Assembly (NCBI RefSeq): GCF_023660105.1
Contig: NZ_JAMHGA010000018.1
Coordinates: 186,001 to 250,000, forward strand
DNA: 64,000 bases
Direction: 5' to 3'
Source of the DNA: Desulfovibrio aminophilus
Lineage (GTDB): Bacteria; Desulfobacterota; Desulfovibrionia; Desulfovibrionales; Desulfovibrionaceae
The notes beneath the pieces were generated by a model. The model ran no database searches. It worked only from the letters and a program-made list of their open reading frames with translations, and was not told the origin of the DNA. The translations under genes and the position numbers were made by a program. Positions 17,552 through 34,507 of the stretch are shown here, in pieces; position 1 is the stretch's first letter; the number at the start of each line of letters is the position of its first letter.

Positions 17552-17588
17552 GGCCGCATCCCGGCTCGATACGGGTTGTGCTGCCGAC

Positions 17589-18983
17589 TTACGTCAGATC
17601 GTACTTCTTCAGCAGGGCGTAGAGGCGGGCCCGGGACAGGTCGGACAGGGCGCAGGCCCGTTGGATGTCGCCGCCGGTCTGGGTCAGCAGGTCCTGGAGG
17701 TAGCGGCGTTCCACGTCGGCCACGGCCTGGAGCCGGACCTCGCGCAGGGGCTGGAGAGGACCGCTTGTCTCGAATTCCGCCCCGGCCGGGGCGCCGTGCC
17801 CGGGCACCGAGGAACGCGCCAGGCTCACGCGGATGTTCGTGGGCAGGTGCGCCGGGATGAGCACCGGATCGTTCTGCGCGGCCGCCAGGGAGCGCTCCAC
17901 GGCGTGGATCAGCTCCCGGACGTTGCCGGGCCATTCGTAGCTCTCCAGGGCTTCCAGGTAGTCCGGGGAGATGCGCTTGGCGGGCAGGCCGTGCAGGCGG
18001 CACCGCCGGGCCACGAAATGGCGGCAGAGCAGGGCGATGTCGCCGTGGCGCTCCTTGAGGCGCGGCAGGCTGAGGGTCATGGTCCGCACCCGGAAGAGCA
18101 GGTCCTGGCGGAAGCGCCCCTGCTCCACCAGCGCGTCCAGGTCGCGGTTGGTGGCCACCACCAGTCGGAATTCACTGCGGATTTCCTTCACCCCGCCCAC
18201 CGGGCGGAAGCAGCCGTCCTGCAGGACGCGCAGGAAGGACTTCTGCACCGCCAGGGGCAGCTCCCCGATCTCGTCCAGGAAGAGGGTGCCCCGGTGGGAC
18301 TGGAGCACCAAGCCCTCGAAGCGGCGGTCCGCGCCGGTGAAGGCCCCCCGCTCGTAGCCGAAGAGCTGGCTTTCCACCAGCTGCTCCGGCAGGGCGGCGC
18401 AGTCCACCACCACGAAGGACGCCTCGGCCCGGTCGCTGTTGTCGTGGATGGCCCGGGCGAAGAGTTCCTTGCCCGTGCCGGTTTCTCCGGTGATGAGCAC
18501 CGAGGCGTCGGTGGCCGCCGCCTGGGCCGCCAGGTCCAGGCAGCGCAGCATGGTCCGGCTGTCGCCGATGATGCCGCTGCGCTTGAGTCCCAGGGGCAGG
18601 AGCCGGTTCTTGCCCCGGTGGTGCTCGATGGCCCGCTGGAGCGGCAGGCGGATCTTGTTCAATGTCGGCGGCTTGGCGATGTAGCTCCAAGCCCCGCTGC
18701 GGATGGCCAGCTCCGCGCCGTCGGGGTCGCCCACGCCGGTGAGGATGATGACCTCCGGCGCGGAGGGGCACTCCTGGAAACGTCCGAGATGCTCCAGACC
18801 GCTGCCGTCGGGCATGCGCACGTCCAGGATGACCACGTCGTAGTCCCCGGCCTCGGCCGTGGCCAGGCCCTCTTTGAGGGTGGCCGAGCAGTCGGCCGCG
18901 TAGCCCATCTGCTCCACGGCGGTCTGGAGCGCGTCGCGGAGCATGGCGTCGTCGTCCACGATGAGCACGTTGGGCCTGTTCAT
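17589..18983 (-). CDS. NtrC-family sigma-54-dependent response regulator
   Basis: 464 residues: receiver domain (1-120; acidic pocket D10-D12, phosphoacceptor D54, lysine in YIAKPP), AAA+ sigma-54 activator domain (about 140-370; Walker A GETGTGKE 166-173, GAFTGA loop in YERGAFTGADRR, Walker B FLDEIGELP) and a C-terminal Fis-type helix-turn-helix (GGDIQRACALSDLSRARLYALLKK). It activates sigma-54 promoters when phosphorylated. The start overlaps the end of the sensor kinase gene by ATGA, so the two form one system. The divergent hdr operon, with a -24/-12-like sequence and a palindrome in the intervening gap, is the obvious target. Confidence 0.95.
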   Translation of the reverse strand: MNRPNVLIVDDDAMLRDALQTAVEQMGYAADCSATLKEGLATAEAGDYDVVILDVRMPDGSGLEHLGRFQECPSAPEVIILTGVGDPDGAELAIRSGAWSYIAKPPTLNKIRLPLQRAIEHHRGKNRLLPLGLKRSGIIGDSRTMLRCLDLAAQAAATDASVLITGETGTGKELFARAIHDNSDRAEASFVVVDCAALPEQLVESQLFGYERGAFTGADRRFEGLVLQSHRGTLFLDEIGELPLAVQKSFLRVLQDGCFRPVGGVKEIRSEFRLVVATNRDLDALVEQGRFRQDLLFRVRTMTLSLPRLKERHGDIALLCRHFVARRCRLHGLPAKRISPDYLEALESYEWPGNVRELIHAVERSLAAAQNDPVLIPAHLPTNIRVSLARSSVPGHGAPAGAEFETSGPLQPLREVRLQAVADVERRYLQDLLTQTGGDIQRACALSDLSRARLYALLKKYDLT

Positions 18984-20920
18984 GCTCCGCTCCCTCCGCT
19001 GGGCCGCGCCCGGCCGAGAATCCGGCGCGCGAGGACCGCGAGCTGGTCCATGCCGTAGGGTTTGTCCAGGTATTCCTGGGCCCCGAGTTTCCAGGCCTTT
19101 TCCCGGGAAGCCAGCTCACTGTGCCCGGAGGCCAGGATGATGGGCAGGTGCGGGTTGATCTTGAGCAGCTCGCGCACGAGGTCCGGCCCGGTCATCCCCG
19201 GCATGGTCGCATCGGTGAGCACCAGGTCGAAACCCTGCGGCGCGTCTCGGAACAGGGCCAGGGCCTCCTCGCCCCGGGAGCAGGCCGTGACCTCGTAGCC
19301 CAGGGCGGTCAGACCCAGGGTGCAGGCGTCCAGGATCTCCACCTCGTCGTCCACCACCAGGATGCGGCCGCCGCCGCGCACCTCGGGGAGCACGCGCGTC
19401 GGCTCCTCCGCCTCGCGGGCCGGGGCGTCCGTGCGCGGCAGGAGGATTTCGAAGCAGGTCCCCGCGCCGGGCTTGCTGCGCACCCGCACGCCGCCGCGCA
19501 ACTGGTCCACGATGTTCTGGACCACGGCCAAGCCCAGGCCGGTGCCCGAGCCGTCGCCCCGGGTGGTGAAGAAGGGCTCGAAGATGTGCTCCATGTGCTC
19601 GGCGTCGATGCCGTGGCCCGTGTCGCGCACGCTGAGGAGCACGTGCGGGCCCGGCGCGGCGCAGGGGAAGGAGCGGTCGCCGCTCCGGGGCACGTCCCGC
19701 TCCGAGACGCGCAGTTCCAGCGATCCGCCGCTGCCGCGCATGGCCCAGGCCGCGTTGGTGCAGAGATTGATGACCATCTGGTGGATTTGGGAGGGATCGG
19801 CCAGGACCACGTCGCGCTTGGTCTCCAGTTCCAGGCTGATGGCGATGGTGCTCGGCAGGGTGGGGCGGAGGAGTTTCAGGCATTCCTCCAGGATGACGGC
19901 CAGGCGCACCGGCATGGGGTGGTCGGACTCGTGGCGGCGGCTCAGGCCGAGAATCTGGCGCACCAGGTCGCCTGCCCTCTTGGTGGCCTTGAGAATGCGC
20001 TCGAAGACCGAGCGCAGCGGGTCGCCCTCGGGCAGGCGGCACAGGCCGATGTCGGCCAGAAGCACGATGGGCGCCAGGATGTTGTTGAAGTCGTGGGCGA
20101 TGCCCCCGGCCAGGGTGCCCAGGGCTTCCATCTTCTGGGCCCGGCGCAGTTGGCGTTCGAGGATTTCCACCTCGGTGACGTCGCGCCAGACGCTCACGTA
20201 GCCGAGGATGCTGCCGCCCTTGCCCCGGATGGGGGCCACGGTCTTCTCGCAGCGGATCACCTTGCCGTCCTTGCAGGTGTTGCCCACCCGACCGGTCCAG
20301 GAGTCTCCCCGCGCGAGACAGTCCAGAATCTCCGCCAAGCAGCGGCCCTGTTCGAAGCCGACGTAGAACGTCGAGGGATCGTGGCCCCGCACGTCCTTGA
20401 GCGAGTAGCCGGTGAGGGCTTCGAAGGACTGGTTGATGAACTCCACGCGCATGTCCTCGTCGTAGACGATCACCGCGTCGGCGGTCTGCTCGATGGCCGA
20501 GGCCAGGCGGGTGCGTTCGCGTTCGGCGGCCTTGCGCGCGGAGACGTCCCGGCTGAACACGGCCACGCGATCCGGCTCCCCGTCCGTTCCCGCGACCCGG
20601 TGCATGCGCGTCTCCAGGTCCAGGCCGGGGATGAGGTTCTCCTCCAGTCTGCGATCCTGGCCGTCCAGGGCGCGGTCCACGGACTCGGCCCATCTTTGGG
20701 CCGTCTCCTGGGGAAAGAAGTCGTAGATGCGTTCTCCGGCGAGTTGCCCGGGATCAAGGTGGAAGATGGCGGCCATGGAGCGGTTGCAGGCCAGGACCGT
20801 GCCGTCCCGGCGGAGGAGCAGGGCATGGTCCGAGGCGGCGTTGAGCAGGGTGTGGACGAGGTCCTCACCGGGCCGTCGCGGGCAGCGGCGGGACGTGGCG
20901 GCAGGGCGTCTGGAGCGCAT
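18980..20920 (-). CDS. PAS-PAS hybrid histidine kinase with C-terminal receiver
   Basis: 646 residues. Two PAS domains (about 20-130 and 140-255), a dimerisation/phosphoacceptor helix with H276 in GGIAHDFNN, a HATPase domain (about 385-505; N box NLCTNAAWAM, G1 DTGHGI, G2 GTGLGLAVVQN) and a receiver domain (about 525-640; VDDE, phosphoacceptor Asp in LVLTDATMPGMTG, LDKPY). No membrane segment, so it is cytoplasmic and probably senses an internal redox or metabolic cue. The first PAS has a cysteine (ACNRS), but no heme or flavin motif is clear. Overlaps the downstream response-regulator gene by four bases. It is divergent from the hdr operon. Confidence 0.93.
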   Translation of the reverse strand: MRSRRPAATSRRCPRRPGEDLVHTLLNAASDHALLLRRDGTVLACNRSMAAIFHLDPGQLAGERIYDFFPQETAQRWAESVDRALDGQDRRLEENLIPGLDLETRMHRVAGTDGEPDRVAVFSRDVSARKAAERERTRLASAIEQTADAVIVYDEDMRVEFINQSFEALTGYSLKDVRGHDPSTFYVGFEQGRCLAEILDCLARGDSWTGRVGNTCKDGKVIRCEKTVAPIRGKGGSILGYVSVWRDVTEVEILERQLRRAQKMEALGTLAGGIAHDFNNILAPIVLLADIGLCRLPEGDPLRSVFERILKATKRAGDLVRQILGLSRRHESDHPMPVRLAVILEECLKLLRPTLPSTIAISLELETKRDVVLADPSQIHQMVINLCTNAAWAMRGSGGSLELRVSERDVPRSGDRSFPCAAPGPHVLLSVRDTGHGIDAEHMEHIFEPFFTTRGDGSGTGLGLAVVQNIVDQLRGGVRVRSKPGAGTCFEILLPRTDAPAREAEEPTRVLPEVRGGGRILVVDDEVEILDACTLGLTALGYEVTACSRGEEALALFRDAPQGFDLVLTDATMPGMTGPDLVRELLKINPHLPIILASGHSELASREKAWKLGAQEYLDKPYGMDQLAVLARRILGRARPSGGSGA

Positions 20921-21113: not shown

Positions 21114-21191
21114 ATGGTGCGTGCAGCCAGCGACCGCGCGGCCCCGGCCGGAACGCCGGACGGGACCGGGCAAGGAACGGGAGGGCACGGC

Positions 21192-23189
21192 ATGGCCAGC
21201 AGAATCGGTGTCTATGTATGCCACTGCGGCACGAACATCGCCGGCAAGGTGGACTCGGCGGGCGTGGCGCGCTTCGCGGCCGGACTGAAGAACGTGATCG
21301 TGGCCCGGGACTACAAGTTCATGTGCTCGGACCCGGGGCAGGACATGATCATCAAGGACATCCGGGAGATGGGCCTGACCCGGGTGGTGGTGGCGTCCTG
21401 TTCGCCGCGACTGCACGAGAAGACCTTCCAGAAGGCCTGCCAGCGCGGCGGACTGAACCCCTTCCTCTTCCAGATGACCTGCATCCGGGAGCACTGCTCC
21501 TGGGTGGTGGCCGATCCGGAAGCGGCCACGGCCAAGGCTCGCAACCTGTTGGCCGCCGCGGTTTCCCGGGTCAACTACCACGACGAGCTGCATTCCCGCG
21601 TGGAAGCCGTGCACCCCGACGTGCTCGTGGTGGGCGGCGGCATCGCCGGAATCCAGGCCGCCCTGGACATCGCCAAGGCGGGCCACAAGGTCCACCTCGT
21701 GGAGAAGGGGCCCTCCATCGGCGGCCACATGGCCCAGTTCGACAAGACCTTCCCCACCCTGGACTGCGCGGCCTGCATCTCCACGCCCAAGATGGTGGCC
21801 GTGGCCCAGGAGTCGAACATCAACCTCATGACCCTGAGCGAGGTGGTGGAGGTCAAGGGCTACGTGGGCAACTACATGGTGCGGGTGCGGACCGCGCCGC
21901 GCTACGTGAACCAGGATCTCTGCACGGGCTGCGGCCTGTGCATGGAGAAGTGCCCCAAGAGCGTGGTCAGCGAGTTCGAGGAGGGCATCGGCAAGCGCAA
22001 GGCCATCCACCGCAATTCGCCCCAGAGCGTGCCCAACACGCCGATGATCGACCCCGCCGTCTGCATCCATTTCGTCAAGGGCAAGTGCGGAGCCTGCGAG
22101 AAGCACTGCCCCTCCGGGGCCATCGATTTCCAGCAGACCGAGTCCTTCCTGGACCTGCAGGTGGGCACCGTGGTCCTGGCCACGGGCTTCGACATCATGG
22201 ACCCGTCCTGCCTGCCGCAATACGGCTTCGGGCGCTATCCCGAGGTCTACACGGGGTTGCAGTTCGAGCGCCTGAACAACGCCGTGGGCCCCACGGGCGG
22301 CAAGATCGTGATGAAGGACGGCCGCCCGCCGGAGAGCGTGGGCATCATCCACTGCGTGGGCAGCCGCGACAAGAACCACCATCCGTACTGCTCGCGGGTC
22401 TGCTGCATGTACGCCCTGAAGTACGACCACCTCATCAAGGACAAGGTCGGCCACGGCGCCAAGGTCTACAATTTCTACATCGACATGCGCTGCTTCGGAA
22501 AGGGCTACGAGGAATTCTACCGCCGGGTCCAGGAGGAGGGCGTGACCTTCATCCGGGGCCGTCCGGCCGAGATCACGGACCGCGCCGCGAACGCCGCCGA
22601 GGAGGGCAAGCTCGTGGTGGTCTGCGAGGACACCCTGCTGGGCCGGACCCTGCGCGTGCCCGTGGACATGGTGGTGCTCTGCACGGCCATGAAGGCCCGG
22701 GCCGACGCCCCGGAAGTGGCCAGGGTCTTCGGCATCAGCCAGGGCCAGGACGGCTTCTTCCTGGAGGAGCACCCCAAGCTCGGGCCGGTGTCCACGGCCA
22801 CCGACGGCATCTTCCTGGCCGGAACCTGCCAGGGGCCCAAGGACATCCCCGACGCCGTGGCCCACGCCTCGGGCGGCGCGGGACAGGCCCTGGCCCTGGC
22901 CGCGCGCGGCGAGGTGGACATCTCGCCCACGGTCTCCTGGATCAACCCGGATGTCTGCGTGGGCTGCAAGATGTGCATCGACCTCTGCGCCTATTCGGCC
23001 ATCGAGTTCGACGAGCGGCGCAAGGTCTCGGTGATCAACGAGGCCATGTGCAAGGGCTGCGGCAGCTGCGCCGGGCACTGTCCCAGCGGGGCGGCCCAGG
23101 TCCGCCACTTCAACGGCAAGCAGGTCTTCGCGGAGATGGAGGGGCTGCTGAGCCCGGCGCCGGACGCGCCCGGCGTGGAAGCCGTCTGA
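21192..23189 (+). CDS. hdrA: HdrA-type FAD/iron-sulfur oxidoreductase
   Basis: 665 residues, the length and order of heterodisulfide reductase subunit A: N-terminal cysteine domain (C10, C12, C45, C70), FAD-binding GGGIAG (148-153), the LDCAAC motif (192-195), where some methanogen HdrAs carry selenocysteine, a ferredoxin insertion (C244, C247, C250, C254 and a second set), and a C-terminal two-cluster ferredoxin (CVGCKMCIDLC and CKGCGSCAGHC). HdrA is the flavin centre where electrons are bifurcated or confurcated. GGGAGGG precedes the ATG. It opens a ten-gene operon with MvhD, FrhB-like, HdrB and HdrC partners, so a cytoplasmic Hdr/Flox-like complex is expected. Confidence 0.95.
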   Translation: MASRIGVYVCHCGTNIAGKVDSAGVARFAAGLKNVIVARDYKFMCSDPGQDMIIKDIREMGLTRVVVASCSPRLHEKTFQKACQRGGLNPFLFQMTCIREHCSWVVADPEAATAKARNLLAAAVSRVNYHDELHSRVEAVHPDVLVVGGGIAGIQAALDIAKAGHKVHLVEKGPSIGGHMAQFDKTFPTLDCAACISTPKMVAVAQESNINLMTLSEVVEVKGYVGNYMVRVRTAPRYVNQDLCTGCGLCMEKCPKSVVSEFEEGIGKRKAIHRNSPQSVPNTPMIDPAVCIHFVKGKCGACEKHCPSGAIDFQQTESFLDLQVGTVVLATGFDIMDPSCLPQYGFGRYPEVYTGLQFERLNNAVGPTGGKIVMKDGRPPESVGIIHCVGSRDKNHHPYCSRVCCMYALKYDHLIKDKVGHGAKVYNFYIDMRCFGKGYEEFYRRVQEEGVTFIRGRPAEITDRAANAAEEGKLVVVCEDTLLGRTLRVPVDMVVLCTAMKARADAPEVARVFGISQGQDGFFLEEHPKLGPVSTATDGIFLAGTCQGPKDIPDAVAHASGGAGQALALAARGEVDISPTVSWINPDVCVGCKMCIDLCAYSAIEFDERRKVSVINEAMCKGCGSCAGHCPSGAAQVRHFNGKQVFAEMEGLLSPAPDAPGVEAV

Positions 23190-23213: not shown

Positions 23214-23684
23214 ATGGAAGAACTGGTCGTCGTCCCGCAAACGGAATCCCGGGCGGTCCCGGGAGAGGCCTTCGAGCCCGCCATCGTGGCCTTCGTCTGC
23301 AACTGGTGCACCTACACCGCCGCGGACCTGGCGGGCACCGCGCGCATGGTCCAGTCGCCCAACGTCCGGCTGGTGCGCATGATGTGCACCGGCATGGTGG
23401 ACCCCAAGTACGTCATCAAGGCCCTGCTCTCCGGGGCGGACGCGGTGCTCGTCTCCGGCTGCCATCCCGGGGACTGCCACTACATCAACGGCAACTACAA
23501 GGCCCGCCGGCGCATGAAGCTGCTCAAGGAGATCCTGCCGCGCTTCGGCATCGACGAGCGCCGGCTCAAGCTGACCTGGGTGGGAGCCAGCGAGGGCAAC
23601 GAGTTCGCCGCCACGGTCAACGCCTTCGTGGCGGAAATCAAGGAGCTGGGGCCCATCGACACCCGGCGCCTGCCCTTGCTCTGA
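23214..23684 (+). CDS. mvhD: MvhD/FlpD-type [2Fe-2S] electron-transfer subunit
   Basis: 156 residues matching the methyl-viologen-reducing hydrogenase delta subunit: C29 and C32 (FVCNWCTY), C58 (MMCTGMVDP) and C83/C88 (SGCHPGDCHY). In methanogens MvhD links hydrogenase or formate dehydrogenase to HdrA. All positions are cysteine here, with no UGA. 24 bases after hdrA with GGGAGGAAG upstream. No hydrogenase large or small subunit is encoded nearby, so the electron donor is more likely to come through the next gene product. Confidence 0.94.
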   Translation: MEELVVVPQTESRAVPGEAFEPAIVAFVCNWCTYTAADLAGTARMVQSPNVRLVRMMCTGMVDPKYVIKALLSGADAVLVSGCHPGDCHYINGNYKARRRMKLLKEILPRFGIDERRLKLTWVGASEGNEFAATVNAFVAEIKELGPIDTRRLPLL

Positions 23685-23709: not shown

Positions 23710-24852
23710 ATGGGAACCATCGCCAGAATCGAGGTCAAGGACGGCAACCCGGTGGCCGCGCTGCGTGAGCTTTGCGCCCGGCTGCTGGCGGACGACGAGG
23801 TCGCGGCCGTGCTCGTGCCCCGGCGTCTGCCCGGGACCAACGGAACCATGCCCGCGCTCGTCACCGACCCGGCCGAGCTGCGGGACGCCGAACCCCTGGC
23901 CCCGTCCTTCCGCATCAACGGGGCCCGCATGCTGGCCCGGCTCACCCGGGGCGGCACGGACGGCGGCCTGGTGGCGGCCTTCATGCGGCCCTGCGAGGTC
24001 CGGGCCTTCGTGGAGCTCTGCAAGCTGAACCAGGGCAGCATGGAGAACGCCCTGATCATCAGCGCGGACTGCCCCGGGGCCTTCACCAACGCCGACTATC
24101 CGACCTTCGCCGGGAACGGCGACCCGGCCGCCGCCGAGATGGACTTCCTGCGGGCCGTGGGCCGGGGGAGTTTCAACGGCGTGGAGATCGCCCGGGCCTG
24201 CTCGGTCTGCGAGCATCCGGCCAGCGCCGAGGCCGACCTGGTCATCGGCCTCTTCGGCCAGGATCCGGCCCAGGGCCTGCTGCTCCTGGCCAACACCCCG
24301 CGCGGCGAGGGCTTCATGACCCGCCTGCAGCTGCCCGAGGCCGCCGACGACGGGTCCCGGGCCAAGGCGCTCGGGGAGCTGGCCGTCGAGCGGAGCGCCG
24401 CCCGCGACCAGATGTTCGAGGAGACGTCCGCGGCCACCTCGGACATGAACGGGCTGTCCAACTTCCTCGCGGCCTGCGTGAACTGCTACAACTGCCGGAT
24501 GGCCTGCCCGGTCTGCTACTGCAAGGAGTGCGTCTTCCTCACGGACGTCTTCGACCACAAGCCGTGGCAGTACCTCTCCTGGGCCCGCCAGCGCGGCAGC
24601 CTGAAGATGCCCACGGACACCGTCTTCTTCCACATCACCCGCCTGGCCCACATGAGCACGGCCTGCGTGGGCTGCGGGCAGTGCTCCAACGCCTGTCCCA
24701 ACGGGGTGCCGGTCATGGAGCTGTTCCGCACCATCGCCGCCTCCACCCAGCAGGCCTTCGAGTACGAGGCGGGCCGGAGCCTCAACGAGCCGCCGCCGCT
24801 CACCGTGTTCCGGGAGCGGGAGTTCGCCGAGGTCACCGGAGGACTGGAGTAG
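23710..24852 (+). CDS. FrhB/FdhB-like iron-sulfur oxidoreductase subunit
   Basis: 380 residues. The N-terminal half resembles the F420-hydrogenase/formate-dehydrogenase beta subunit family (RPCEVRAFVELCKLNQ is the recognisable block). The C-terminal third carries two ferredoxin-type motifs: CVNCYNCRMACPVCYCKEC around residues 257-275, and CVGCGQCSNACPNG around 317-330. Such subunits pass electrons between a soluble or flavin donor and Hdr complexes. The gene lies 25 bases after mvhD, and its partner enzyme is not in the operon. Precise donor (NADH, F420-like, formate) is not readable from the sequence. Confidence 0.85.
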   Translation: MGTIARIEVKDGNPVAALRELCARLLADDEVAAVLVPRRLPGTNGTMPALVTDPAELRDAEPLAPSFRINGARMLARLTRGGTDGGLVAAFMRPCEVRAFVELCKLNQGSMENALIISADCPGAFTNADYPTFAGNGDPAAAEMDFLRAVGRGSFNGVEIARACSVCEHPASAEADLVIGLFGQDPAQGLLLLANTPRGEGFMTRLQLPEAADDGSRAKALGELAVERSAARDQMFEETSAATSDMNGLSNFLAACVNCYNCRMACPVCYCKECVFLTDVFDHKPWQYLSWARQRGSLKMPTDTVFFHITRLAHMSTACVGCGQCSNACPNGVPVMELFRTIAASTQQAFEYEAGRSLNEPPPLTVFREREFAEVTGGLE

Positions 24853-24891: not shown

Positions 24892-27800
24892 ATGAAGAAG
24901 GAATACGGAGCCCTGGTGGTTGGCGCCGGAATCGGCGGCATCCGTGCCGCCCTGGACCTGGCCGAGACCGGGTACAAGGTGGCCCTCATCGATGCCCGGC
25001 CGAACCTGGGAGGCATCCTGACGCAGCTCGACCTGCAATTCCCCACGGACCGCTGCGGGATGTGCAAGATGCTCCCCCTGACCCAGCGCGACCAGTCCAG
25101 CCAGTACTGCCTGCGCAAGGGACTGTTTCACAAGAACATCGACATCCACCTTCAGACCGAGCTGACCGCCCTGGAGGGCGATCCGGGCAAGTTTCACGCC
25201 ACCCTGAGCCGCCGATCCACCTTCGTGGATCCGGAGCGCTGCGTGAGCTGCGGCAAGTGCGCCGAGGTCTGCCCGGTGCGGGTGCCCAACGAGTTCAACG
25301 CGGGCCTGAGCAAGCGGGCGGCCGTGTACCTGCCCGTGCCGCACAACATTCCCAACCACTATGTGGTGGACCTGGACAGCTGCCAGCGCTGCTGGCGCTG
25401 CCACGAGGCCTGCCCCACCGGGGCCATCGACTTCCGTTCGGTCCAGCGCGCCGAGTTCCACGTCCTGGCGGTCACGCCGGACGTGGCGGCCGGGGCGGAG
25501 CTGAGCCAATGGCTCCAGGACCTGGACTTCCCCACCCGCGTGGAGGGCACGGGCGAGGCCGCCGTGGATCGGCTCGGCGGCGGCGCGGAGTGCGGCCTGC
25601 TGCTGCTGGACCTGGATATGCCCGGCGGCGGGGCCGAGCGCGCCCTGCGACGCGCCCTGGAGCTGCGGCCCGGTCTGGCCGTGGTCCTGCTGGCCGCTCC
25701 CGGAAAGGAAGAGGCGACCCAGGCCCTGCTGAAGCTCGGCGCGCGCGACGTGCTGGCCAAGCCCCTGGCCCGGGAGAAGGCCGTGCCCTGGCTGGACAAG
25801 CTCTTCATGCGCCTAGCCTCGGATCGGACCCTGGAGCTGGAGGTGGGTGCGGTGATTCTGGCCGCCGGGTTCGAGTGTTTCGACCCGGCCTCGGCCCCGG
25901 CCGGATGCGCCGACATCCTGGCCTACGGCTCGCACCCGGGCGTGCTCACTTCCGTGGAGTTCGAGCGCCTGTGCAGCTCCACCGGCCCCACCGGCGGCCA
26001 CATGGTCCGGCCCGGCGACGGCAAGCCCCTGCGCCGGATCGCCTGGCTCCAGTGCGTGGGCTCGCGGGATGTGAAGCGCAACGCGGACTTCTGCTCCTCC
26101 TTCTGCTGCATGATCTCCATCAAGGAGGCCATGCTGGCCAAGAAGCTGTCGGGCGGCGAGGCCGAGACGGTCATCTTCTACATGGACATGCGCACGCCGG
26201 GGCGGGACTACCAGCGCTACCGCGACGAAGCCGAGACCTCGGGCGGGGTGCGCTTCGTGCCCGCCAGGCCGCATACCCTGCTGCCCGGACCGGACGGCGA
26301 CGTGCTCGTGGAATACTACGACTATTCCGGCGAACTGCGCTCGGAGGTCTTCGACGCCGTGGTCCTGGCCGTGGGAGCCAGGCCGCCCCGGTCCATGGAG
26401 CGCCTGGCCCAGGCCGCCGGGGTCGAGGTCAACGACTGGGGTTTCTGCGAGACCAAGCCCCTGGCCCCCAACCGCACGAGCCGCCTGGGCGTGTTCGCGG
26501 CCGGGGCCTTCGGGGAGCCCAAGGACATCCGCGACACCCTGATTCAGGCCGGCGCGGCGGCCATGGGCGCCTCGCGCATGATGCGGGTCTATCGCGGGCC
26601 GCGCGAGGAGTTGGTCGAGGAGGAGCCGGTCTACACCGACGTCTCCCGCCAGGAACCCCGGGTGCTCATGGCCCTGTGCACGTCCTGCCCGACCCTGGAG
26701 CGCCGGGCGGACATGGCCGAGTTGCGGCGGCGCATGGAAAGCCTGCCCGGCGTGGCCCGGGTCATGGAGGTGGGCTCGGCCTGCACGAGCCAGGGCTGGG
26801 AGGCGATCAGGAACGAGGCCGCCGAGCTGCACCCCAATCGGGTGCTCATCGGGGCCTGCCTGCCGTATGCCCATGTGCCGCGCCTGCGGGAGCTGGGCGA
26901 GGCCCTGGAGCTCAACCCGGCGCTCATGGACGTGGTGGACATCCACACCGCCGCCTTCGCGGGCGGCGACGATGACGTTTCGGCGCGGACCGCCGAGACG
27001 GCCTCGCTGCTGGCCATGGCCGAGGCCAAGCTCCTGGGCGCGGACCCCTCGCCCCTGCCGCAGGCCACGCCGGTCTCGCCCAACGCCCTGGTGGTGGGCG
27101 GCGGACTGGCGGGCATGACCGCGGCCATGGGCATCGCGGACCAGGGCTTCAAGGTCTTCCTGGTGGAGGAGGCCGAGGAACTGGGCGGCACGGCCATGAG
27201 CCTGCGCTACACCCTGGAGGGCGAGGACCCCGCGCGCTTCATGGGGGATCTCATCGAGCAGGTGGAGAAGAATCCGAACATCCGCGTGCTCAAGGATTCC
27301 CGGGTGGTGCTCTCGCGCGGCCGGGCCGGGCGGTTCGTGACCGTCATCGCCACCGGCGAGGGCGTGGCCCACACCCTGCACCACGGGGCCACCATCCTGG
27401 CCACCGGCGGCCGGGAGGCCCGGGTCTACGAATACGGCAACCGGGTGCACAAGTGCGTGCTGACCCAGCTGGAGCTGGAACAGCGCCTGGCCGACGGCGC
27501 GCTGGACGCCTCCGGGCTCGGCGGGGTGGCCATGATTCAGTGCTGGCGCTCGCGCGACGAGTCGCGGCGCTATTGCAGCCGGGTCTGCTGCCTGAGCGCG
27601 CTGAAGAACATCCTCATGCTCAAGCGCCGCAATCCCGGCCTGCCCATCTACGTCTTCTACCGCGACATCATGAGCACGGGCTTCTCGGAGCACTTCTACA
27701 CCGAGGCCCGGCGCGCCGGGGCCGTGTTCGTCCGCTACACCCTGGCGAACAAGCCGCGCGTGGAGTTCGAGGACCAGAAGCCGGTGATCACCGCCCTGGA

Positions 27801-28359
27801 CCCGGTCCTGGGCGGAGAGATCCAGGTGCGGCCGGACCTGCTCGTGCTCTCCAGCGGCGTGGAGCCCAACGACGCCGCCGAGGTGGCCGAGCTCTTCGGC
27901 GTGGGGCTGAACGAGGACGGCTTCTACCAGGAGGCCGAGACCAAGTGGCGGCCGGTGGACTTCCTCAAGCACGGCGTCTTCGCCTGCGGCCTGGCCCTGG
28001 GCCCGGCCACCATGCGCGACACGCTCCTCTCGTCCAAGGCCGCCGCCCAGAGGGCCGTGCGCATCCTGAACGAAAAGCGCCTCACCTGCGGCAACGTGGT
28101 GGCCGAGGTGCGCAACACGCTCTGCTCGCGCTGCGGCCGGTGCATTCCGGTCTGCCCGTATGGGGCGCGGTCCCTGGACCTGGAGAGCGACGCCATCGTG
28201 GTGGACGACCTGCTCTGCCAGGGCTGCGGCTCATGCATGGCGGTCTGTCCCAACAGCGCCACCGTGCTGCGCGGCTTCCGCGACGAGCAGGTCATGGCCG
28301 TGATCGACGCGGCCCTGGTCGGCCCGTCCCCGGCGGCGGCCGCGAACACCGGACGATGA
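24892..28359 (+). CDS. Giant double HdrA-like flavoprotein with an embedded receiver-like domain
   Basis: 1155 residues. First HdrA-like half: FAD motif GAGIGG (11-16), CGMC (55-58), ferredoxin C117-C120-C123-C127 and C164-C167-C170-C174. Then, at about 188-306, an insert that reads as a receiver domain: D240 in LLLDLDMPGGG, beta-4 VVLLAAP and K290 in DVLAKPLA. The acidic pair of a true receiver is replaced by TP (195-196) and the Thr/Ser by Ala, so it may be a pseudo-receiver. The HdrA fold resumes (GCADILAYG onward). A linker (about 585-720) leads to a second FAD domain (GGGLAG, 736-741) and a C-terminal two-cluster ferredoxin (CSRCGRCIPVC, CQGCGSCMAVC). The gene is inside the hdr operon, 39 bases after the FrhB-like gene, and presumably is the second flavin hub. 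Confidence 0.9.
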   Translation: MKKEYGALVVGAGIGGIRAALDLAETGYKVALIDARPNLGGILTQLDLQFPTDRCGMCKMLPLTQRDQSSQYCLRKGLFHKNIDIHLQTELTALEGDPGKFHATLSRRSTFVDPERCVSCGKCAEVCPVRVPNEFNAGLSKRAAVYLPVPHNIPNHYVVDLDSCQRCWRCHEACPTGAIDFRSVQRAEFHVLAVTPDVAAGAELSQWLQDLDFPTRVEGTGEAAVDRLGGGAECGLLLLDLDMPGGGAERALRRALELRPGLAVVLLAAPGKEEATQALLKLGARDVLAKPLAREKAVPWLDKLFMRLASDRTLELEVGAVILAAGFECFDPASAPAGCADILAYGSHPGVLTSVEFERLCSSTGPTGGHMVRPGDGKPLRRIAWLQCVGSRDVKRNADFCSSFCCMISIKEAMLAKKLSGGEAETVIFYMDMRTPGRDYQRYRDEAETSGGVRFVPARPHTLLPGPDGDVLVEYYDYSGELRSEVFDAVVLAVGARPPRSMERLAQAAGVEVNDWGFCETKPLAPNRTSRLGVFAAGAFGEPKDIRDTLIQAGAAAMGASRMMRVYRGPREELVEEEPVYTDVSRQEPRVLMALCTSCPTLERRADMAELRRRMESLPGVARVMEVGSACTSQGWEAIRNEAAELHPNRVLIGACLPYAHVPRLRELGEALELNPALMDVVDIHTAAFAGGDDDVSARTAETASLLAMAEAKLLGADPSPLPQATPVSPNALVVGGGLAGMTAAMGIADQGFKVFLVEEAEELGGTAMSLRYTLEGEDPARFMGDLIEQVEKNPNIRVLKDSRVVLSRGRAGRFVTVIATGEGVAHTLHHGATILATGGREARVYEYGNRVHKCVLTQLELEQRLADGALDASGLGGVAMIQCWRSRDESRRYCSRVCCLSALKNILMLKRRNPGLPIYVFYRDIMSTGFSEHFYTEARRAGAVFVRYTLANKPRVEFEDQKPVITALDPVLGGEIQVRPDLLVLSSGVEPNDAAEVAELFGVGLNEDGFYQEAETKWRPVDFLKHGVFACGLALGPATMRDTLLSSKAAAQRAVRILNEKRLTCGNVVAEVRNTLCSRCGRCIPVCPYGARSLDLESDAIVVDDLLCQGCGSCMAVCPNSATVLRGFRDEQVMAVIDAALVGPSPAAAANTGR

Positions 28360-28372
28360 AGGAGGTCGAGCC

Positions 28373-28951
28373 ATGAACCAGCGGAGCGAAGCCGTCTCCC
28401 TGCCCGCCGCCGTGACCATCGCGGCCGACGCGGCCGCCCTGGCCGAGATCCAGGACATGGTCCGGGCCTGCATGCAGTGCGGAACCTGTTCCGCCTCCTG
28501 CCCCAACGCCCCGGCCATGGACCACACGCCCCGGAGCCTGTGGCGCATGCTCCTGCTGGGGCTCGTGGACGAGGTGCTGGAGAGCCGGACCTTCTGGCTC
28601 TGCTCGGCCTGCTACTCCTGCACGCTGCGCTGTCCGCGCGGCCTGCCCCTGACCGCGGCCATGGCCGCGCTGAAGCGCCTGGCCGCCTCCGACGGCCGGT
28701 CCGCGGACCGCAAGCGGGGCCTGTTCTACGAGGACTTCATGCGCAACGTGGAGAAGAACGGGCGGGTGCGCGAGACCGAGCTCATGCTCCATTATTTCCT
28801 GGACATGCGCGATCCGCTCCTGCCCCTGGAATACACCCCGCTCGGGCTGAAGCTCCTGCGCAAGGGCAAGCTGCACCTGGGCGGAAGCGGACAGCTGGGC
28901 CGTCTCGGCCCGCTCTTCGCCAAGGTCCGTGAAATGGAGGCCCGGCCATGA
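28373..28951 (+). CDS. hdrC: HdrC-type iron-sulfur protein
   Basis: 192 residues with two ferredoxin motifs, CMQCGTCSASCPNAP and CSACYSCTLRCPRG, followed by a helical tail; this is the HdrC pattern. HdrC carries electrons between HdrA and HdrB. GGAGG lies 7 bases before the ATG. The end overlaps the hdrB start (ATGA), so the HdrBC pair is translationally coupled. No membrane helix, so this is the soluble form. Confidence 0.92.
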   Translation: MNQRSEAVSLPAAVTIAADAAALAEIQDMVRACMQCGTCSASCPNAPAMDHTPRSLWRMLLLGLVDEVLESRTFWLCSACYSCTLRCPRGLPLTAAMAALKRLAASDGRSADRKRGLFYEDFMRNVEKNGRVRETELMLHYFLDMRDPLLPLEYTPLGLKLLRKGKLHLGGSGQLGRLGPLFAKVREMEARP

Positions 28952-29835
28952 AGTACAGCTACTATCCCGGCTGCTCCCTGGAGAGCGGGGCGGTGGAGTA
29001 CGACCTCTCCAGCCGCGAGGTGCTGCGCCTGCTCGGCGTGGAGTTGGCGGAAATCCCGGACTGGACCTGCTGCGGCGCGAGCGCCGTGGAACCCGTGAGC
29101 AGCCTGCTGACCCTGGCCCTGCCCGCCCGCAACCTGGCCCTGGCCGAACGCGAGGTCCCGGACGCGGACATGCTCGTGCCGTGCAGCGCCTGCTACCTGA
29201 ACCATCTGCGCGTGGAGCGGGAGTGCGGCGCGGACCGCAAGCTCGCGGCCCGGGTCAACGAGGCCCTCTCCGCCGAGGGACTGAGCCGCTCCGGCACGGT
29301 GCGGGTCCGCCACCTCCTGGACGTGCTCTTCCGGGACGTGGGCCCGGAGCGGGTGGGCCAGGCCGTGGTCCGCCGCCTGGAAGGGCTGACCGCGGCTCCC
29401 TATTACGGCTGCCAAGTGTTGCGGCCCTATCCGCTGTTCGACGACCCGGAGCGTCCGGCCTCGATGACGCCCCTGCTCAAGGCCCTGGGCGTCGAGGTCC
29501 TGGACTGGGACATGGGCGGCCGCTGCTGCGGGGCCTCGCTCATGGCCACCAAGCGCGACGCGGCCCTGGCCCTGGTGTCCGCCATCCTGGACGCGGCCTC
29601 GGGGGCGGACCTCATCGTCACGGTCTGCCCCATGTGCCAGATGAACCTGGAGGCCTACCAGAAGGAGGCCATCCGCTCCGGCGGCAGGGGACGCCCGGTG
29701 TCGGTGCTCTATCTGCCTCAGCTCATGGGCCTGGCGCTGGGCCTTTCGGAAGACGACGTGCTTCTGGGCAAGAATCTGGCGGTCACGGACACGCTGCTCG
29801 GCAAGCTGCGCGCGCCCGAGGCCGCGGAGGTCTGA
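28948..29835 (+). CDS. hdrB: HdrB-type subunit with two CCG domains
   Basis: 295 residues with the two cysteine-rich CCG repeats of HdrB: YYPGCSLES, WTCCGASAVE and CSACYLNHLR in the first; YYGCQVL, GRCCGASL and CPMCQMN in the second. In methanogen HdrB these bind two noncubane [4Fe-4S] clusters that cleave a disulfide such as CoM-S-S-CoB. In a sulfate reducer the substrate must be different, for example a DsrC-type trisulfide or small thiol; that is inference. Overlaps hdrC by four bases. Confidence 0.93.
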   Translation: MKYSYYPGCSLESGAVEYDLSSREVLRLLGVELAEIPDWTCCGASAVEPVSSLLTLALPARNLALAEREVPDADMLVPCSACYLNHLRVERECGADRKLAARVNEALSAEGLSRSGTVRVRHLLDVLFRDVGPERVGQAVVRRLEGLTAAPYYGCQVLRPYPLFDDPERPASMTPLLKALGVEVLDWDMGGRCCGASLMATKRDAALALVSAILDAASGADLIVTVCPMCQMNLEAYQKEAIRSGGRGRPVSVLYLPQLMGLALGLSEDDVLLGKNLAVTDTLLGKLRAPEAAEV

Positions 29836-29866: not shown

Positions 29867-30814
29867 ATGTTCAAGGACATCCTTTTGGCGATCACGCCGT
29901 CGGAATTGTGTGACTGCGCGGCGGACGCGGCCTTCCACTTCGCGCAGCGGTTCGAATCCCGCCTGGTCGTGGTGCATGTCTGCGGCATGGTCCAGGGCTG
30001 GGGCGAGATGGAGTTCCTGGAGTCTTCCGGCGAGGTCGGCCGGATCAAGGCCTCGGTGGAGGAGTACTACAAGGACAAGCTGAAGGGCTTGGACAACTAC
30101 GAGATCAAGGTGGTGCCCGGCGTGCCCCACGCCGAGATCCTGCGCATCGCCCGCAAGATGAACGCCGACCTCATCGTCATGGGGCCGCACACCAAGGAAT
30201 ACGCCGAGATGCGCGTCCGCCAGTGGGGCATGGCCGGCAGCACCCTGGAACAGGTGAGCCAGAAGGCCCGCTGCCCGGTCATGATCGTGGCCAAGTCCAC
30301 GCCGTACGGCGAGCACAACTTCCTGAACATCGTCGCGGCCACGGACTTCTCCGAGCAGGCCGACTGCGCGGTCTTCTACGGCGGCCAGATCGCCCGGCAC
30401 TACAAGGCGGGCCTCACGGTCTTCCACTGCGTGGACGCGGGCGAATCCGGGCGCGTCTCCCTGGGCCAGGAGGAGATCCGGCGCTCCATCGAGACGGCCA
30501 AGGCCAACCTGGAGGAGCGCTACGGGGACAAGCTCCGGGGCATCAAGGGCTGCTCCTTCGAGGCCTGGGAGGGCATGCCCGCCATGGAAATCCTGAAGCT
30601 GGCGCGGATGCGCGAGGCCGATCTCATCCTCATGGCCCACCACACCCGCGAGGCCGATCCCGAGAAGGCCTTCCTGGGCTCCACCGTGGTCCAGGTGGCC
30701 CTCAACTCCACCTGTCCGACCATGAGCGTGAACCGTCACTTCGACCTGCGCTGCGGCCTGATGTACGACCAGACCGGCGAAGTGGTCTCGGAAACCGGCA
30801 TGGCCGCCGTCTAG
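29867..30814 (+). CDS. Tandem universal stress protein (UspA) family protein
   Basis: 315 residues forming two UspA domains (about 1-145 and 150-290). The first begins MFKDILLAITPSE and contains ADLIVMGPHTK...STLEQVSQKARCPVMIV, close to the ATP-binding GX2GX9GS pattern; the second has ADLILMAHHTREADPEKAFLGSTVVQV. AGGAGG precedes the ATG. Usp genes inside electron-transfer operons are often redox or energy-charge regulators, but the role here is unknown. It is followed after 16 bases by a receiver-domain gene, giving a small regulatory pair in the middle of the hdr operon. Confidence 0.9.
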   Translation: MFKDILLAITPSELCDCAADAAFHFAQRFESRLVVVHVCGMVQGWGEMEFLESSGEVGRIKASVEEYYKDKLKGLDNYEIKVVPGVPHAEILRIARKMNADLIVMGPHTKEYAEMRVRQWGMAGSTLEQVSQKARCPVMIVAKSTPYGEHNFLNIVAATDFSEQADCAVFYGGQIARHYKAGLTVFHCVDAGESGRVSLGQEEIRRSIETAKANLEERYGDKLRGIKGCSFEAWEGMPAMEILKLARMREADLILMAHHTREADPEKAFLGSTVVQVALNSTCPTMSVNRHFDLRCGLMYDQTGEVVSETGMAAV

Positions 30815-30830
30815 GATCGGGGAGGACGAC

Positions 30831-31220
30831 ATGAGCGGTTTGATCAGGGTTCTGGTGGTGGACGACGACGCGCGTTTCGCCTCCAACATGGTCAAGCTTC
30901 TGGAAGCCTACGGCCTCCTCGCCGACACGGTGAACAGCGGCGAGGAGGCCCTGAAGAGCCTGGGCCGGGACGCCTACGACGTGGTGCTCCTGGACGTGCG
31001 CCTGCCGGGCCTCACCGGCACGGCCACCCTGGAGCACCTGGCCCAGGCCGGGGTCGAGGCCAGGATCATCGTGGTCACCGGGCACGCCTCGGCGGACGAC
31101 GCGGCCGAGTTCCTCCGGCTGGGGGCCTTCGACTACCTGCTCAAGCCCTGCAAGACGGAGAAGCTCCTGGAGGTGATCCGCGGGGCCTGCGGGAGCAAGA
31201 CCGGGGCGACGGTCGGCTAG
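30831..31220 (+). CDS. Stand-alone receiver-domain protein in the hdr operon
   Basis: 129 residues with an intact receiver: D11-D13 acidic pocket, phosphoacceptor D55 (VVLLDVRLPG), T83 and K105 (YLLKPCKTE). No output domain. It sits between uspA and the HdrD-like genes, so it is made together with the electron-transfer proteins. Because the giant HdrA in the same operon carries a degenerate receiver-like insert, this protein may dimerise with or regulate that flavoprotein; the hybrid kinase divergent from the operon is a candidate phosphodonor. Both suggestions are inference. Confidence 0.92.
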   Translation: MSGLIRVLVVDDDARFASNMVKLLEAYGLLADTVNSGEEALKSLGRDAYDVVLLDVRLPGLTGTATLEHLAQAGVEARIIVVTGHASADDAAEFLRLGAFDYLLKPCKTEKLLEVIRGACGSKTGATVG

Positions 31221-31246: not shown

Positions 31247-32542
31247 ATGGGAGAGACGATGACGATGCTGACGCCCAGGACCAGCGAATTCCTGGGCAAG
31301 GTCATGAACCTGATGCCGGAAGGCGGAAATCTGTCCATGTGCCTGACCTGCGGCGCCTGCTCCGCAGGCTGCCCCGCGACGGGTCTGCACGGCATGGACC
31401 CGCGCAAGTTCTTGAGGCTGTGCGCCCTGGGACAGGATGACATCGTGCTGTCCACCCCCTGGGTCTGGATGTGCACCATGTGCCAACGATGCGTTTACGC
31501 CTGCCCCATGCACATCGACATCCCGCGCCTGATCTATGAGGCCCGGGCGTCCTGGCCGCGGGAGAACCGGCCCAAGGGCATCCGGGGGTCCTGCGATCAG
31601 GCCCTGAACACCGAAGGCAACTCGGCCATGGGAGCGCGGAGCGAGGACTTCAAGTTCGTGGTCGAGGACATCCTGCAGGAGGTCAAGGAGTCGCAGCCGG
31701 GCTGGGAGGACCTTTCGGTCTCCTTCAACCGCCAGGGCGCGGAGTATTTCCTGAACCAGAACTCCCGCGAGCCCGTGACCGAGCCGGACGAGATGGTTCC
31801 GCTGTGGAAAATCCTGCACACGACGCAATGCGACTGGACATACGGCACGCTGGGCTGGGCCGCCGAGAACTATTGCATGTTCCTGGCCGACGACAAAGCC
31901 TGGGAAACCATCGTCCGCAACAAGATCCAGGCTGTGGAGGAGCTGGGATGCCGATATTGGCTGAACACGGAGTGAGGGCACGAGATGTACGCAATCCGGT
32001 CTGGATTGCAGAAGTTCGGCATCACTCCCAAGTTCGAGATCGAGAGCATCATCCGGCTCTATGCCCGCTGGATACGGGAAGGGAAGCTGAGGGTCAGTTC
32101 CGACTGGAACCGGGACCTGGGCGTGACCTTCACGGTCCAGGATCCGTGCCAGCTCGTGCGCAAGTCCTTCGGCGACCCGGTGGCCGAGGACCTGCGGTTC
32201 GTGGTCAAGTCCGTGGTCGGCGAGGAGCACTTCATCGACATGGCTCCGAACCGGTCCAACAACTATTGCTGCGGGGGCGGGGGCGGATATCTGCAATCCG
32301 GCTTCACCGCCGAGCGGCGGGCCTATGGGCAGAGGAAGCTCAAGCAGATACTGGACACCGGCGCGGACTACTGCATCGCTCCGTGCCACAACTGCCATTC
32401 GCAGATTCACGATCTCTCCGAGAATTCGGGCAAGCATTTCCCGGTGGTCCATCTCTGGACCCTGATCTGCCTGTCCATGGGCTGCCTCGGGGAGAACGAG
32501 CGCAGCTATCTGGGCGAAGACCTGGCCGGCGTGGGGTTGTGA
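31247..32542 (+). CDS. HdrD/DsrK-like iron-sulfur protein, probable selenoprotein (UGA = Sec243)
   Basis: Two open stretches in one frame, separated by a single TGA at 31973-31975, together give a complete 431-residue HdrD-like protein: two ferredoxin motifs (C32-C35-C38-C42 and C76-C79-C82-C86) and two CCG domains. The residues around the stop read NTE-U-GHEMYAIRSG. The adjacent paralogue (32616-33926) has DCGGGSYGCRTG there, with Cys235 at the UGA position, so UGA replaces a cysteine of the first CCG domain. A bacterial SECIS-like hairpin follows immediately (31991-32009). The second CCG motif (NNYCCGGGGG) is intact. Start ATG has AAGGAGGG upstream. The alternative is a nonsense mutation or a second start at 31985, which has a weak GAGGG before it; with every flank conserved I favour selenocysteine. 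Confidence 0.85.
31991..32009 (+). promoter_or_regulatory. SECIS-like stem-loop downstream of the in-frame UGA
   Basis: GCAATCC-GGTCT-GGATTGC: seven perfect base pairs closing a GGUCU loop, starting 15 bases after the UGA, with the loop 22 bases after it. The known E. coli fdhF SECIS also has GGUCU in its apical loop at about 18 bases after UGA, and SelB requires the loop G and bulged U in this range. Confidence 0.8.
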
Positions 32543-32615
32543 CGCGTTGCGGGGCGCGTCCGGCCTCCGGGCCGGGCGCCCCCGCGACGACGCCCCGCAA
32601 CGAGTGAGGTTCGCC

Positions 32616-33926
32616 ATGAGCACCGTCATTCCCGCCTCCCTGGATGAGGAAATCCGGCTGCATCTCGCCAAGTTCGATTTCAGCGCCTGCCTGGCCTGCG
32701 GGGCGTGCAGCAGCGGCTGCCCCACCAGCAACTCCCCGGACAACGAGGGCTGGAACATCCGCAAGGTGCTGCGCATGCTGGCCTACGGCATGGTGGACGA
32801 GGTCGTGGCCGCCAACTTCCCCTGGCTCTGCACGGGGTGCGGCCGTTGCGCCCTGGCCTGTCCAATGGGCCTGGACATCGTGCCGATCATGCTTCACATG
32901 AAGCATCTCCGCTCCCGCGACCAGGTGCCCGGCGTGCTCCAGAAGGGCATCGCGAACAACCTGGAGAGCGGCAACAACATGAGCATCCCCCGGGACGACT
33001 ACCTGCTCGGCATGGCCGAGCTGGGACAGCAGCTTTCCGATGAAGACTGCCCGGGATTCTACGTGCCCGTGGATCACAACGACGCCGACATCCTGTTCTT
33101 TCCCAACTCCAAGGAGGTCTACGGCGACTTCGAGGACCAGTTCTGGTGGTGGAAGGTCTTCTATGCCGCGCACGAGAACTGGACCGTGCCTTCCGAGGGT
33201 TGGGAGGCCGTGGACTGGGCCCTGTTCACCGGCAACTACGACGGCATCAGGGCCCTGGCCGAGCGCAAGATCGAGTACATCCGGCGCTTCAACATCCGGC
33301 GCATGATCATGCCGGACTGCGGCGGCGGGTCCTACGGCTGCCGGACCGGCATGAAGCACTGCATCGAGCTGAACAAGGAGAACAAGGTCAATTTCATCTA
33401 TCTCTATGAATACCTCAAGGAGATCATCGAGCAGGGGCGGATCACGCTGGACAAGAGGGTGCACGCGGGCAAGCGCTTCACTTGGCACGACTCCTGTAAA
33501 CACGGCCGTGAACTGCTCAAGCACTATGGCCAGGCGTTTTTCGAGGAACCCCGCTGGATTCTCTCCCAGTGCGTGGACGAGTTCGTGGAGATGACGCCCA
33601 ACCGCGAGGCGAACTATTGCTGCGGCGCGGGCGGCGGCAACTGGCCCGGCCCCTTCGAGAAGCAGTCGGCCTTCCACGGCCGCTACAAGGCCGAGCAGAT
33701 CCGCCGCACCGGCGCGGACGTGGTGGTGGTCGGCTGCTCCAACTGCCGCGACCAGATCATGAAGCGCCTGCCCAAGTACTACAAGGATCTCAAGTACGAG
33801 GTGAAGTACATCTGGCAGGTGGTGGCCGAGGCCCTGGTCATCGAGCCCTGGGCCCAGGAGGCCGTGGATCGGGCGGCGGCCGCCGCCGCCGCCCAGTGGA
33901 AGGCCTTCGGCATCGAGCCGGAGTAG
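32616..33926 (+). CDS. HdrD/DsrK-like iron-sulfur protein, cysteine form
   Basis: 436 residues, paralogous to the preceding gene product: ferredoxin motifs C25-C28-C31-C35 and C72-C75-C78-C82, then two CCG domains (MPDCGGGSYGC with C235; HDSCKHG, then NYCCGAGGGNW and VGCSNCRDQ). HdrD/DsrK proteins carry catalytic noncubane clusters acting on disulfides or persulfides, with a membrane or soluble partner. It is the last gene of the hdr operon, 73 bases after the Sec-containing paralogue and 27 bases before a strong terminator. Having one Sec and one Cys copy side by side is unusual. TGAGG is a modest ribosome site. Confidence 0.93.
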   Translation: MSTVIPASLDEEIRLHLAKFDFSACLACGACSSGCPTSNSPDNEGWNIRKVLRMLAYGMVDEVVAANFPWLCTGCGRCALACPMGLDIVPIMLHMKHLRSRDQVPGVLQKGIANNLESGNNMSIPRDDYLLGMAELGQQLSDEDCPGFYVPVDHNDADILFFPNSKEVYGDFEDQFWWWKVFYAAHENWTVPSEGWEAVDWALFTGNYDGIRALAERKIEYIRRFNIRRMIMPDCGGGSYGCRTGMKHCIELNKENKVNFIYLYEYLKEIIEQGRITLDKRVHAGKRFTWHDSCKHGRELLKHYGQAFFEEPRWILSQCVDEFVEMTPNREANYCCGAGGGNWPGPFEKQSAFHGRYKAEQIRRTGADVVVVGCSNCRDQIMKRLPKYYKDLKYEVKYIWQVVAEALVIEPWAQEAVDRAAAAAAAQWKAFGIEPE

Positions 33927-34153: not shown

Positions 34154-34486
34154 CGGTCTGCCGCATGGCCAGGGCCAGGGGCTGGGCCTGGGGCTGGACG
34201 GCTATGGCCTGGGCCAGGAGGAACGGGCCCCGCGCCTGCTGCGCAAGGTGGAGCCGAAATATCCCCTGGCCGCGCGCAGGCGGCAGGTCACGGGCAAGGC
34301 GCTGGTCAAGTTCCTGGTGGACCCCGAGGGCCGCGTGCGGCGCCTGGACGTGGTCGAATCCCGGCCCAGGGGGGCGATCAGGCCGCCGTGGAGGCCGTGT
34401 CCGCCTGGGAGTTCAGCCCCGGCGTGCTGCGCGGTCGGAACGTGAGTGTCTGGATGCTCCTGCCGATCTCCTTCACGTTGCAGTGA
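34154..34486 (+). pseudogene. Frameshifted partial duplicate of tonB 3' end
   Basis: Nearly identical to 17216-17551 (the last 336 bp of tonB), from GLPHGQGQGLG to the stop after FTLQ. Four bases (TGTT) are missing where the intact gene reads GGGGTGTTCGATC, so the frame is lost after SRPRG. There is no membrane segment or promoter, so it cannot make a working TonB. It lies between the two tRNA-derived repeats, suggesting that the piece arrived with, or by recombination during, island formation. The base differences from the intact gene are scattered, many of them silent. Confidence 0.9.
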
Positions 34487-34507
34487 TGCCGTCGCCGGGC
34501 GTCTGGA

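Follow-up and report, generated by a model that had tools for sequence, protein, structure and literature searches.

In the window (the whole 64,000-nucleotide stretch of Desulfovibrio aminophilus DNA that was analysed), an operon whose genes all lie on the forward strand encodes an HdrA-like flavoprotein of 1,155 aa (24892..28359) together with a set of electron-transfer subunits. Upstream of it lie a partner HdrA of the HdrA2-like type (667 aa, no insert; 21186..23189; NF040770, 786 bits), with orthologues at the loci that were read on their upstream side, a FlpD/MvhD electron-entry subunit (23214..23684; PF02662, 178 bits) and an FrhB/FdhB-like flavin/iron–sulfur subunit (23710..24852; PF04432 and Fer4 matches). 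Downstream follow an HdrC-like protein (28373..28951; TIGR03290, 86.9 bits), an HdrB-like protein with two CCG domains (28948..29835; PF02754 and TIGR03288), a tandem universal stress protein (Usp; 29867..30814; PF00582, 139.9 bits), a stand-alone canonical receiver of 129 aa (30831..31220; PF00072, 98.6 bits), an HdrD-like protein (31247..32542) and a second HdrD/HmcF/TmcB-like protein (32568..33926; NF045711, 169 bits). Divergent from the operon, on the reverse strand, are a PAS-PAS-HisKA-HATPase-REC hybrid kinase (18980..20920), conserved in most orthologous loci, and an NtrC-type response regulator (REC-AAA-HTH_8; 17589..18983), conserved in nearly all of them. Profile searches confirmed the UspA and receiver genes that a first-pass annotation of this DNA had placed in the operon, as well as the divergent hybrid kinase. 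The HdrD-like gene contains an in-frame TGA at 31973-31975 (context NTE-TGA-GH), and all 11 orthologues examined, from two bacterial groups, have a TGA at the matching position; it probably encodes selenocysteine, and gene-calling programs would break the gene in two there. On either side of the whole hdr region, some 17 kb apart, lies a copy of a TonB C-terminal segment (17215-17556 and 34154-34491). The two copies share 95% identity across 342 bases and, with an integrase-like gene at 35621-36808, may mark a past rearrangement.

Profile searches and alignment to a solved HdrA resolve the 1,155-residue protein into two fused HdrA units, of which the first (residues 6–570) has no HdrA N-terminal domain and the second (590–1142) has one. 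It carries the hallmarks of the HdrA family, namely an FAD domain with two inserted ferredoxin-type clusters and a C-terminal ferredoxin domain. It scored 638.8 bits against NF040770 (HdrA2), under the cutoff of 1100, and 506.2 bits against NF041778, under the cutoff of 1400, and is a relative of the HdrA/HdrA2 equivalog, not the equivalog itself. The inserted ferredoxin domain of the first unit (residues 112–182; 25225..25437; PF00037 matches) holds two 4Fe-4S clusters, and the cluster cysteines C117, C120, C123, C127, C164, C167, C170 and C174 are invariant in 16 orthologues. Together with the FlpD, HdrB and HdrC partners, these cysteines suggest that the complex is electron-bifurcating.

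Directly behind the last cluster cysteine of this ferredoxin domain, and before the rest of the first FAD domain, residues 186–311 (25447..25824) form a receiver domain. PF00072 matched in frame at window positions 25483-25779 with 39.4 bits (cutoff 30.2; E = 1.6e-9), at residues 199–296 with 34.3 bits in a whole-protein hmmscan, and with 39.7 bits when the insert was searched in isolation. An AlphaFold model of residues 186–316 (pLDDT 90.1) shows the (beta-alpha)5 receiver order of strands and helices, and the top Foldseek matches in the PDB were all receivers (3crn, TM 0.88; NtrC1 4l4u, TM 0.89; CheY, NtrX and Spo0F). In alignment to the solved HdrA 8rvv, residues 6–180 correspond to 142–306 and residues 313–511 to 313–506; because positions 306 and 313 of 8rvv adjoin residues 180 and 313 here, the insert stands in for a six-residue link. 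It measures about 124–127 aa here and 121–136 aa in full-length orthologues, always in the identical slot. The first-pass annotation had proposed just such a receiver between the ferredoxin region and the rest of the first flavin half, and the profile matches, the predicted fold and the 8rvv alignment all agree with it. A structure model of the whole protein reached a pLDDT of 69.5, too low for placing the insert against the remainder.

The canonical phospho-receiver active site (DD, D, T, K) has not survived in this copy, in which three of the five residues are gone: the acidic pair is replaced by T195 and P196 (25474..25479) and, in the active-site alignment, the Thr switch position by A268 (25693..25695). 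The phospho-acceptor position is retained as D240 (25609..25611), and the Lys and cis-Pro positions as K290-P291 (25759..25764), in line with the residues and numbering given previously. The absence of any one of the five residues defines a pseudo-receiver in PMC12632262, and the insert in D. aminophilus HdrA is a pseudo-receiver.

At least 18 further genomes of the order have a receiver in the same slot. Among 59 relatives, insert-bearing full-length orthologues (56–94% identity) came from the genus and the family of D. aminophilus and from two further families of its order. When 395 genomes across the phylum were searched, 15 had a match spanning the insert and both flanks with E below 1e-43, and the next-best matches were ordinary receivers at about 1e-18, with one at 1e-23. 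Desulfobacterales-type MAGs with the insert were found among the matches listed in a scan of named genomes; HdrA homologues from Chloroflexota, Bacillota and archaea among the matches listed had no receiver insert, and some groups carried an oxidoreductase insert of about 470 residues. There is next to no probability that the domain is an assembly or annotation artefact, or flavodoxin-like rather than a receiver: the same in-frame insert in many independent genomes rules out an artefact or a chance match, and the Foldseek and Pfam matches to receivers rule out a flavodoxin.

Two sets of proteins were compared, a canonical set of 23 Desulfobacterales-type homologues from outside the Desulfovibrionales and a degenerate set of 20 proteins from the Desulfovibrionales. 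The acidic pair, phospho-Asp, Thr, Lys and cis-Pro are invariant in the canonical set (23/23), where receiver identity exceeds that of the HdrA core (residues 316–720) in 253 of 253 pairs (median 0.71 versus 0.46). In the degenerate set the receiver is less conserved than the core in 190 of 190 pairs (0.36 versus 0.55). The first residue of the acidic pair is Asp in 10 of the 20 degenerate proteins and the second in none (Glu in 3); the phospho-acceptor position holds Asp in 14 and Gly in the other 6, 2 proteins keep the Thr and 14 the Lys, and the Pro is present in all. In a tree of the HdrA core from which the insert had been left out, built by a quick method with the root drawn at the midpoint, the 42 receiver-bearing proteins formed one clade (SH-aLRT 100), and 19 degenerate proteins formed one clade (SH-aLRT 100) nested among the canonical ones (91). 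The topology points to a single gain of the insert, followed by a single decay in the D. aminophilus lineage. On the simplest reading of these data, a working receiver would have been gained once and would then have lost phosphorylation and shifted to another working mode.

Decay of the active site did not bring neutrality with it. The degenerate insert is the fastest-evolving part of the protein, and its dN/dS from simple pairwise comparison (0.16–0.56) lies below 1 and at about twice that of the core, which argues for purifying selection. Seven residues, R254, E257, W300, D302, K303, R307 and S310, became newly invariant, or nearly so, in the degenerate clade only. Five of them belong to the helix-5 motif W300-L-D-K...R307..S310-D311 (25789..25824), where D302, K303 and R307 are present in 20 of 20 degenerate proteins and W300 and S310 in 19 of 20, all of them at positions that vary in the canonical clade. 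The active site has decayed, yet purifying selection and a new helix-5 motif are apparent, so the D. aminophilus copy is probably a docking or gating module that works independently of phosphorylation.

The main rival to this reading is that the former receiver is a structural relic in the D. aminophilus lineage, merely a spacer or stabiliser with no part in signalling or gating, and retained because a folded domain is hard to remove from a ferredoxin hinge. Its status as the least-conserved part of the protein in the degenerate clade, a dN/dS about twice that of the core and active-site residues scattered among the degenerate proteins would all fit a relic; a dN/dS clearly below 1 and the new invariants do not, and no orthologue without the domain was found in the degenerate clade, in a similarity search whose query itself bears the domain. 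We regard a relic as unlikely, while taking it seriously. Very little probability attaches to a weak but real phospho-receiver in which D240 and K290 still permit slow phosphorylation. Both residues are kept here, as is each position in 14 of 20 relatives, and a changed DD, T or K does not always prevent the reaction (PMC12632262); however, both metal-binding Asp residues and the Thr are gone from this copy, and in 6 of 20 orthologues that have retained the domain Gly stands in place of the phospho-Asp. Equally far-fetched in our estimate is a pseudo-receiver that senses a ligand (quinone or c-di-GMP, as in KaiA/CikA or ShkA) and so reads redox state: such proteins have precedents (PMC12632262) and the host protein is a redox enzyme, but no ligand motif was found in the domain, and its conserved surface is formed by helix 5 and helix 3, not by an established pocket.

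The operon itself offers another candidate, in that the 129-aa receiver, phosphorylated by the divergent hybrid kinase, might pair with the pseudo-receiver in the manner of PleD and so control the enzyme. The REC/pseudo-REC arrangement of PleD is a precedent (reviewed in PMC12632262), and all active-site residues of the 129-aa receiver are intact. We nevertheless consider this pairing improbable, as the 129-aa receiver occurs in only four orthologous operons (in the D. aminophilus genome, two of its genus and one of a close genus), whereas the pseudo-receiver occurs in all; with that distribution it cannot be a general partner, and it was rejected as one. The tandem Usp of this operon is conserved mainly in Desulfovibrionales operons and is mostly absent from canonical-type loci. 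Desulfovibrionales loci have a hybrid kinase and/or an NtrC-type regulator divergent from the operon, and this pair, as a DNA-binding system, more likely controls transcription. A sigma-54 promoter linking the divergent NtrC-type regulator to the operon was also considered and rejected: in the window no site before the operon was better than shuffles, and none was consistent in relatives.

Canonical-type and degenerate-type loci share genes for the HdrA2-like protein, FlpD, the FrhB-like subunit, the receiver-bearing HdrA, HdrC and HdrB, and usually for an HdrD-like protein. The partner HdrA of the canonical group carries an NfnB/GltD-type insert, as in HdrL; this insert of about 460 aa was considered as a possible histidine kinase, a candidate rejected once it was identified from its sequence as an NfnB/GltD-type oxidoreductase. 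Of the 18 canonical-type loci that extend far enough past the hdr genes, 15 have downstream a membrane kinase of HAMP-PAS-PAS-HisKA-HATPase architecture, a member of one orthologous family (53–76% identity), which in most cases comes immediately next; in the canonical loci L078/L158 and L086 the kinase is not nearby. It is usually accompanied by a REC-HATPase protein and often has no adjacent DNA-binding regulator, which makes the HdrA receiver a plausible target. Direct signalling into a bifurcating-type enzyme, as the first-pass annotation had suggested, thus holds up as the probable ancestral state, given 23 of 23 intact receivers and a kinase downstream in most loci. For D. aminophilus itself the case is weaker because the insert lacks three of the five active-site residues and 6 of 20 same-order relatives have Gly where the phospho-Asp would be.

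The kinase family is not exclusive to hdr operons: D. aminophilus has a copy, 57% identical, beside a Tmc complex, and orthologues (47–58% identity over the whole length) persist at other loci in about half of the degenerate genomes. We accordingly rejected the idea that the kinase is exclusive to operons with a receiver-bearing HdrA and was lost with the phospho-site. The D. aminophilus copy lies in a region (L169:4354-16959) encoding TmcD, TmcB and an Rrf2-type regulator divergent from the membrane kinase, a REC-HATPase protein, a tandem Usp and receivers; this is the same kind of regulatory module as that beside the receiver-bearing HdrA in relatives, and it looks like a module travelling with respiratory complexes. 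At one locus of the canonical group (G390; L163:13707-15014), two single Usp genes flank a stand-alone receiver downstream of hdrB, an arrangement that resembles the Usp–receiver pair of the D. aminophilus window. HdrA fusions with an NfnB/GltD-type insert of about 470 aa (L019:1495-5502, L020:1366-5493, L098 and others) are scattered among insert-free homologues, and 12 changes on the tree suggest repeated gain or loss. In two archaeal HdrA homologues (L096:7869-12782 and L117:10001-15049), the two HdrA parts are about 640 and 1,020 residues apart; the region may carry additional inserts, or the parts may be neighbouring genes in their own right.

Compared with known systems, the protein resembles the HdrA of HdrABC-MvhADG and its relatives (5ODC, 8RVV and 7BKB) in domain order and cluster cysteines (alignment E = 1e-110), but here two HdrA units are fused and the receiver replaces the six-residue link. 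HdrL and the HdrA9–11 proteins of ANME (PMC2702500, PMC9012536) likewise carry a complete extra domain next to the inserted ferredoxin clusters of HdrA; theirs, an NfnB/GltD-type NAD(P)H oxidoreductase, immediately precedes the second cluster, whereas here a signalling domain immediately follows it. The protein is not a member of HdrL, given a receiver insert of 124 aa here and HdrL-type inserts of about 470 aa; an HdrL-type HdrA is instead the operon partner of the canonical receiver-bearing HdrA. Receivers on metabolic enzymes are known, thioredoxin reductase included (PMC5847659), and the latter fusions also join REC to a flavin oxidoreductase of the thioredoxin-reductase fold; there REC was reported in combination with the enzyme, and here it lies inside an iron–sulfur flavoprotein of a bifurcating-type complex. 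The insert shares with bacterial pseudo-receivers a receiver fold in which one or more of the five active-site residues is missing, and the text on pseudo-receivers in PMC12632262 makes no mention of heterodisulfide reductase or oxidoreductases. An hdr operon of D. vulgaris is known to be under response-regulator control (PMC3333781). Literature searches of openly readable papers found no description of a receiver or response regulator within HdrA. With receivers on enzymes, pseudo-receivers and HdrA proteins with an oxidoreductase insert all known, and a receiver inside HdrA unreported as far as those searches reached, what is new is the enzyme and the inserted position of an enzyme-output receiver.

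That position suggests how the domain might act. For methanogen HdrA, the proposed exit of low-potential electrons to ferredoxin is the inserted ferredoxin domain (PMC9012536), and a gating role in bifurcation has been suggested for a moving arm of the complex (PMC12350162); a receiver on the end of the inserted ferredoxin domain would be in a good position to influence how that domain moves or how ferredoxin docks. We propose that a canonical two-component receiver entered HdrA once, behind the ferredoxin domain carrying low-potential electrons from the bifurcating flavin. In Desulfobacterales-type bacteria, the nearby membrane histidine kinase would probably phosphorylate the intact HdrA receiver, and the phosphorylated receiver would change the movement or docking of the ferredoxin domain and so raise or lower bifurcation or ferredoxin reduction. 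In the D. aminophilus lineage, the phospho-chemistry would have been lost, and a pseudo-receiver held by the conserved helix 5 could dock or gate either the ferredoxin domain or a partner from the operon with no need of phosphorylation. A single insertion, with phospho-controlled bifurcation in the relatives and phosphorylation-independent docking or gating here, is the account we favour, if by a modest measure of confidence. The narrower proposal, that the Desulfobacterales-type kinase switches bifurcation post-translationally through the HdrA receiver and that the Desulfovibrionales copy is a derived, phosphorylation-independent gate, is put forward tentatively; kinase control of enzyme output is suggested by genetic linkage in the relatives.

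To our knowledge, descriptions of how flavin-based electron bifurcation is controlled have dealt mainly with transcription and redox poise. If our proposal is correct, a receiver at the low-potential exit of HdrA would provide a direct, fast switch from environmental sensing to an energy-conserving step, and the occurrence of the same enzyme with and without the phospho-site, canonical versus decayed and of apparently one origin, makes the question directly testable. Some sulfate reducers may thus control electron bifurcation directly by two-component signalling.
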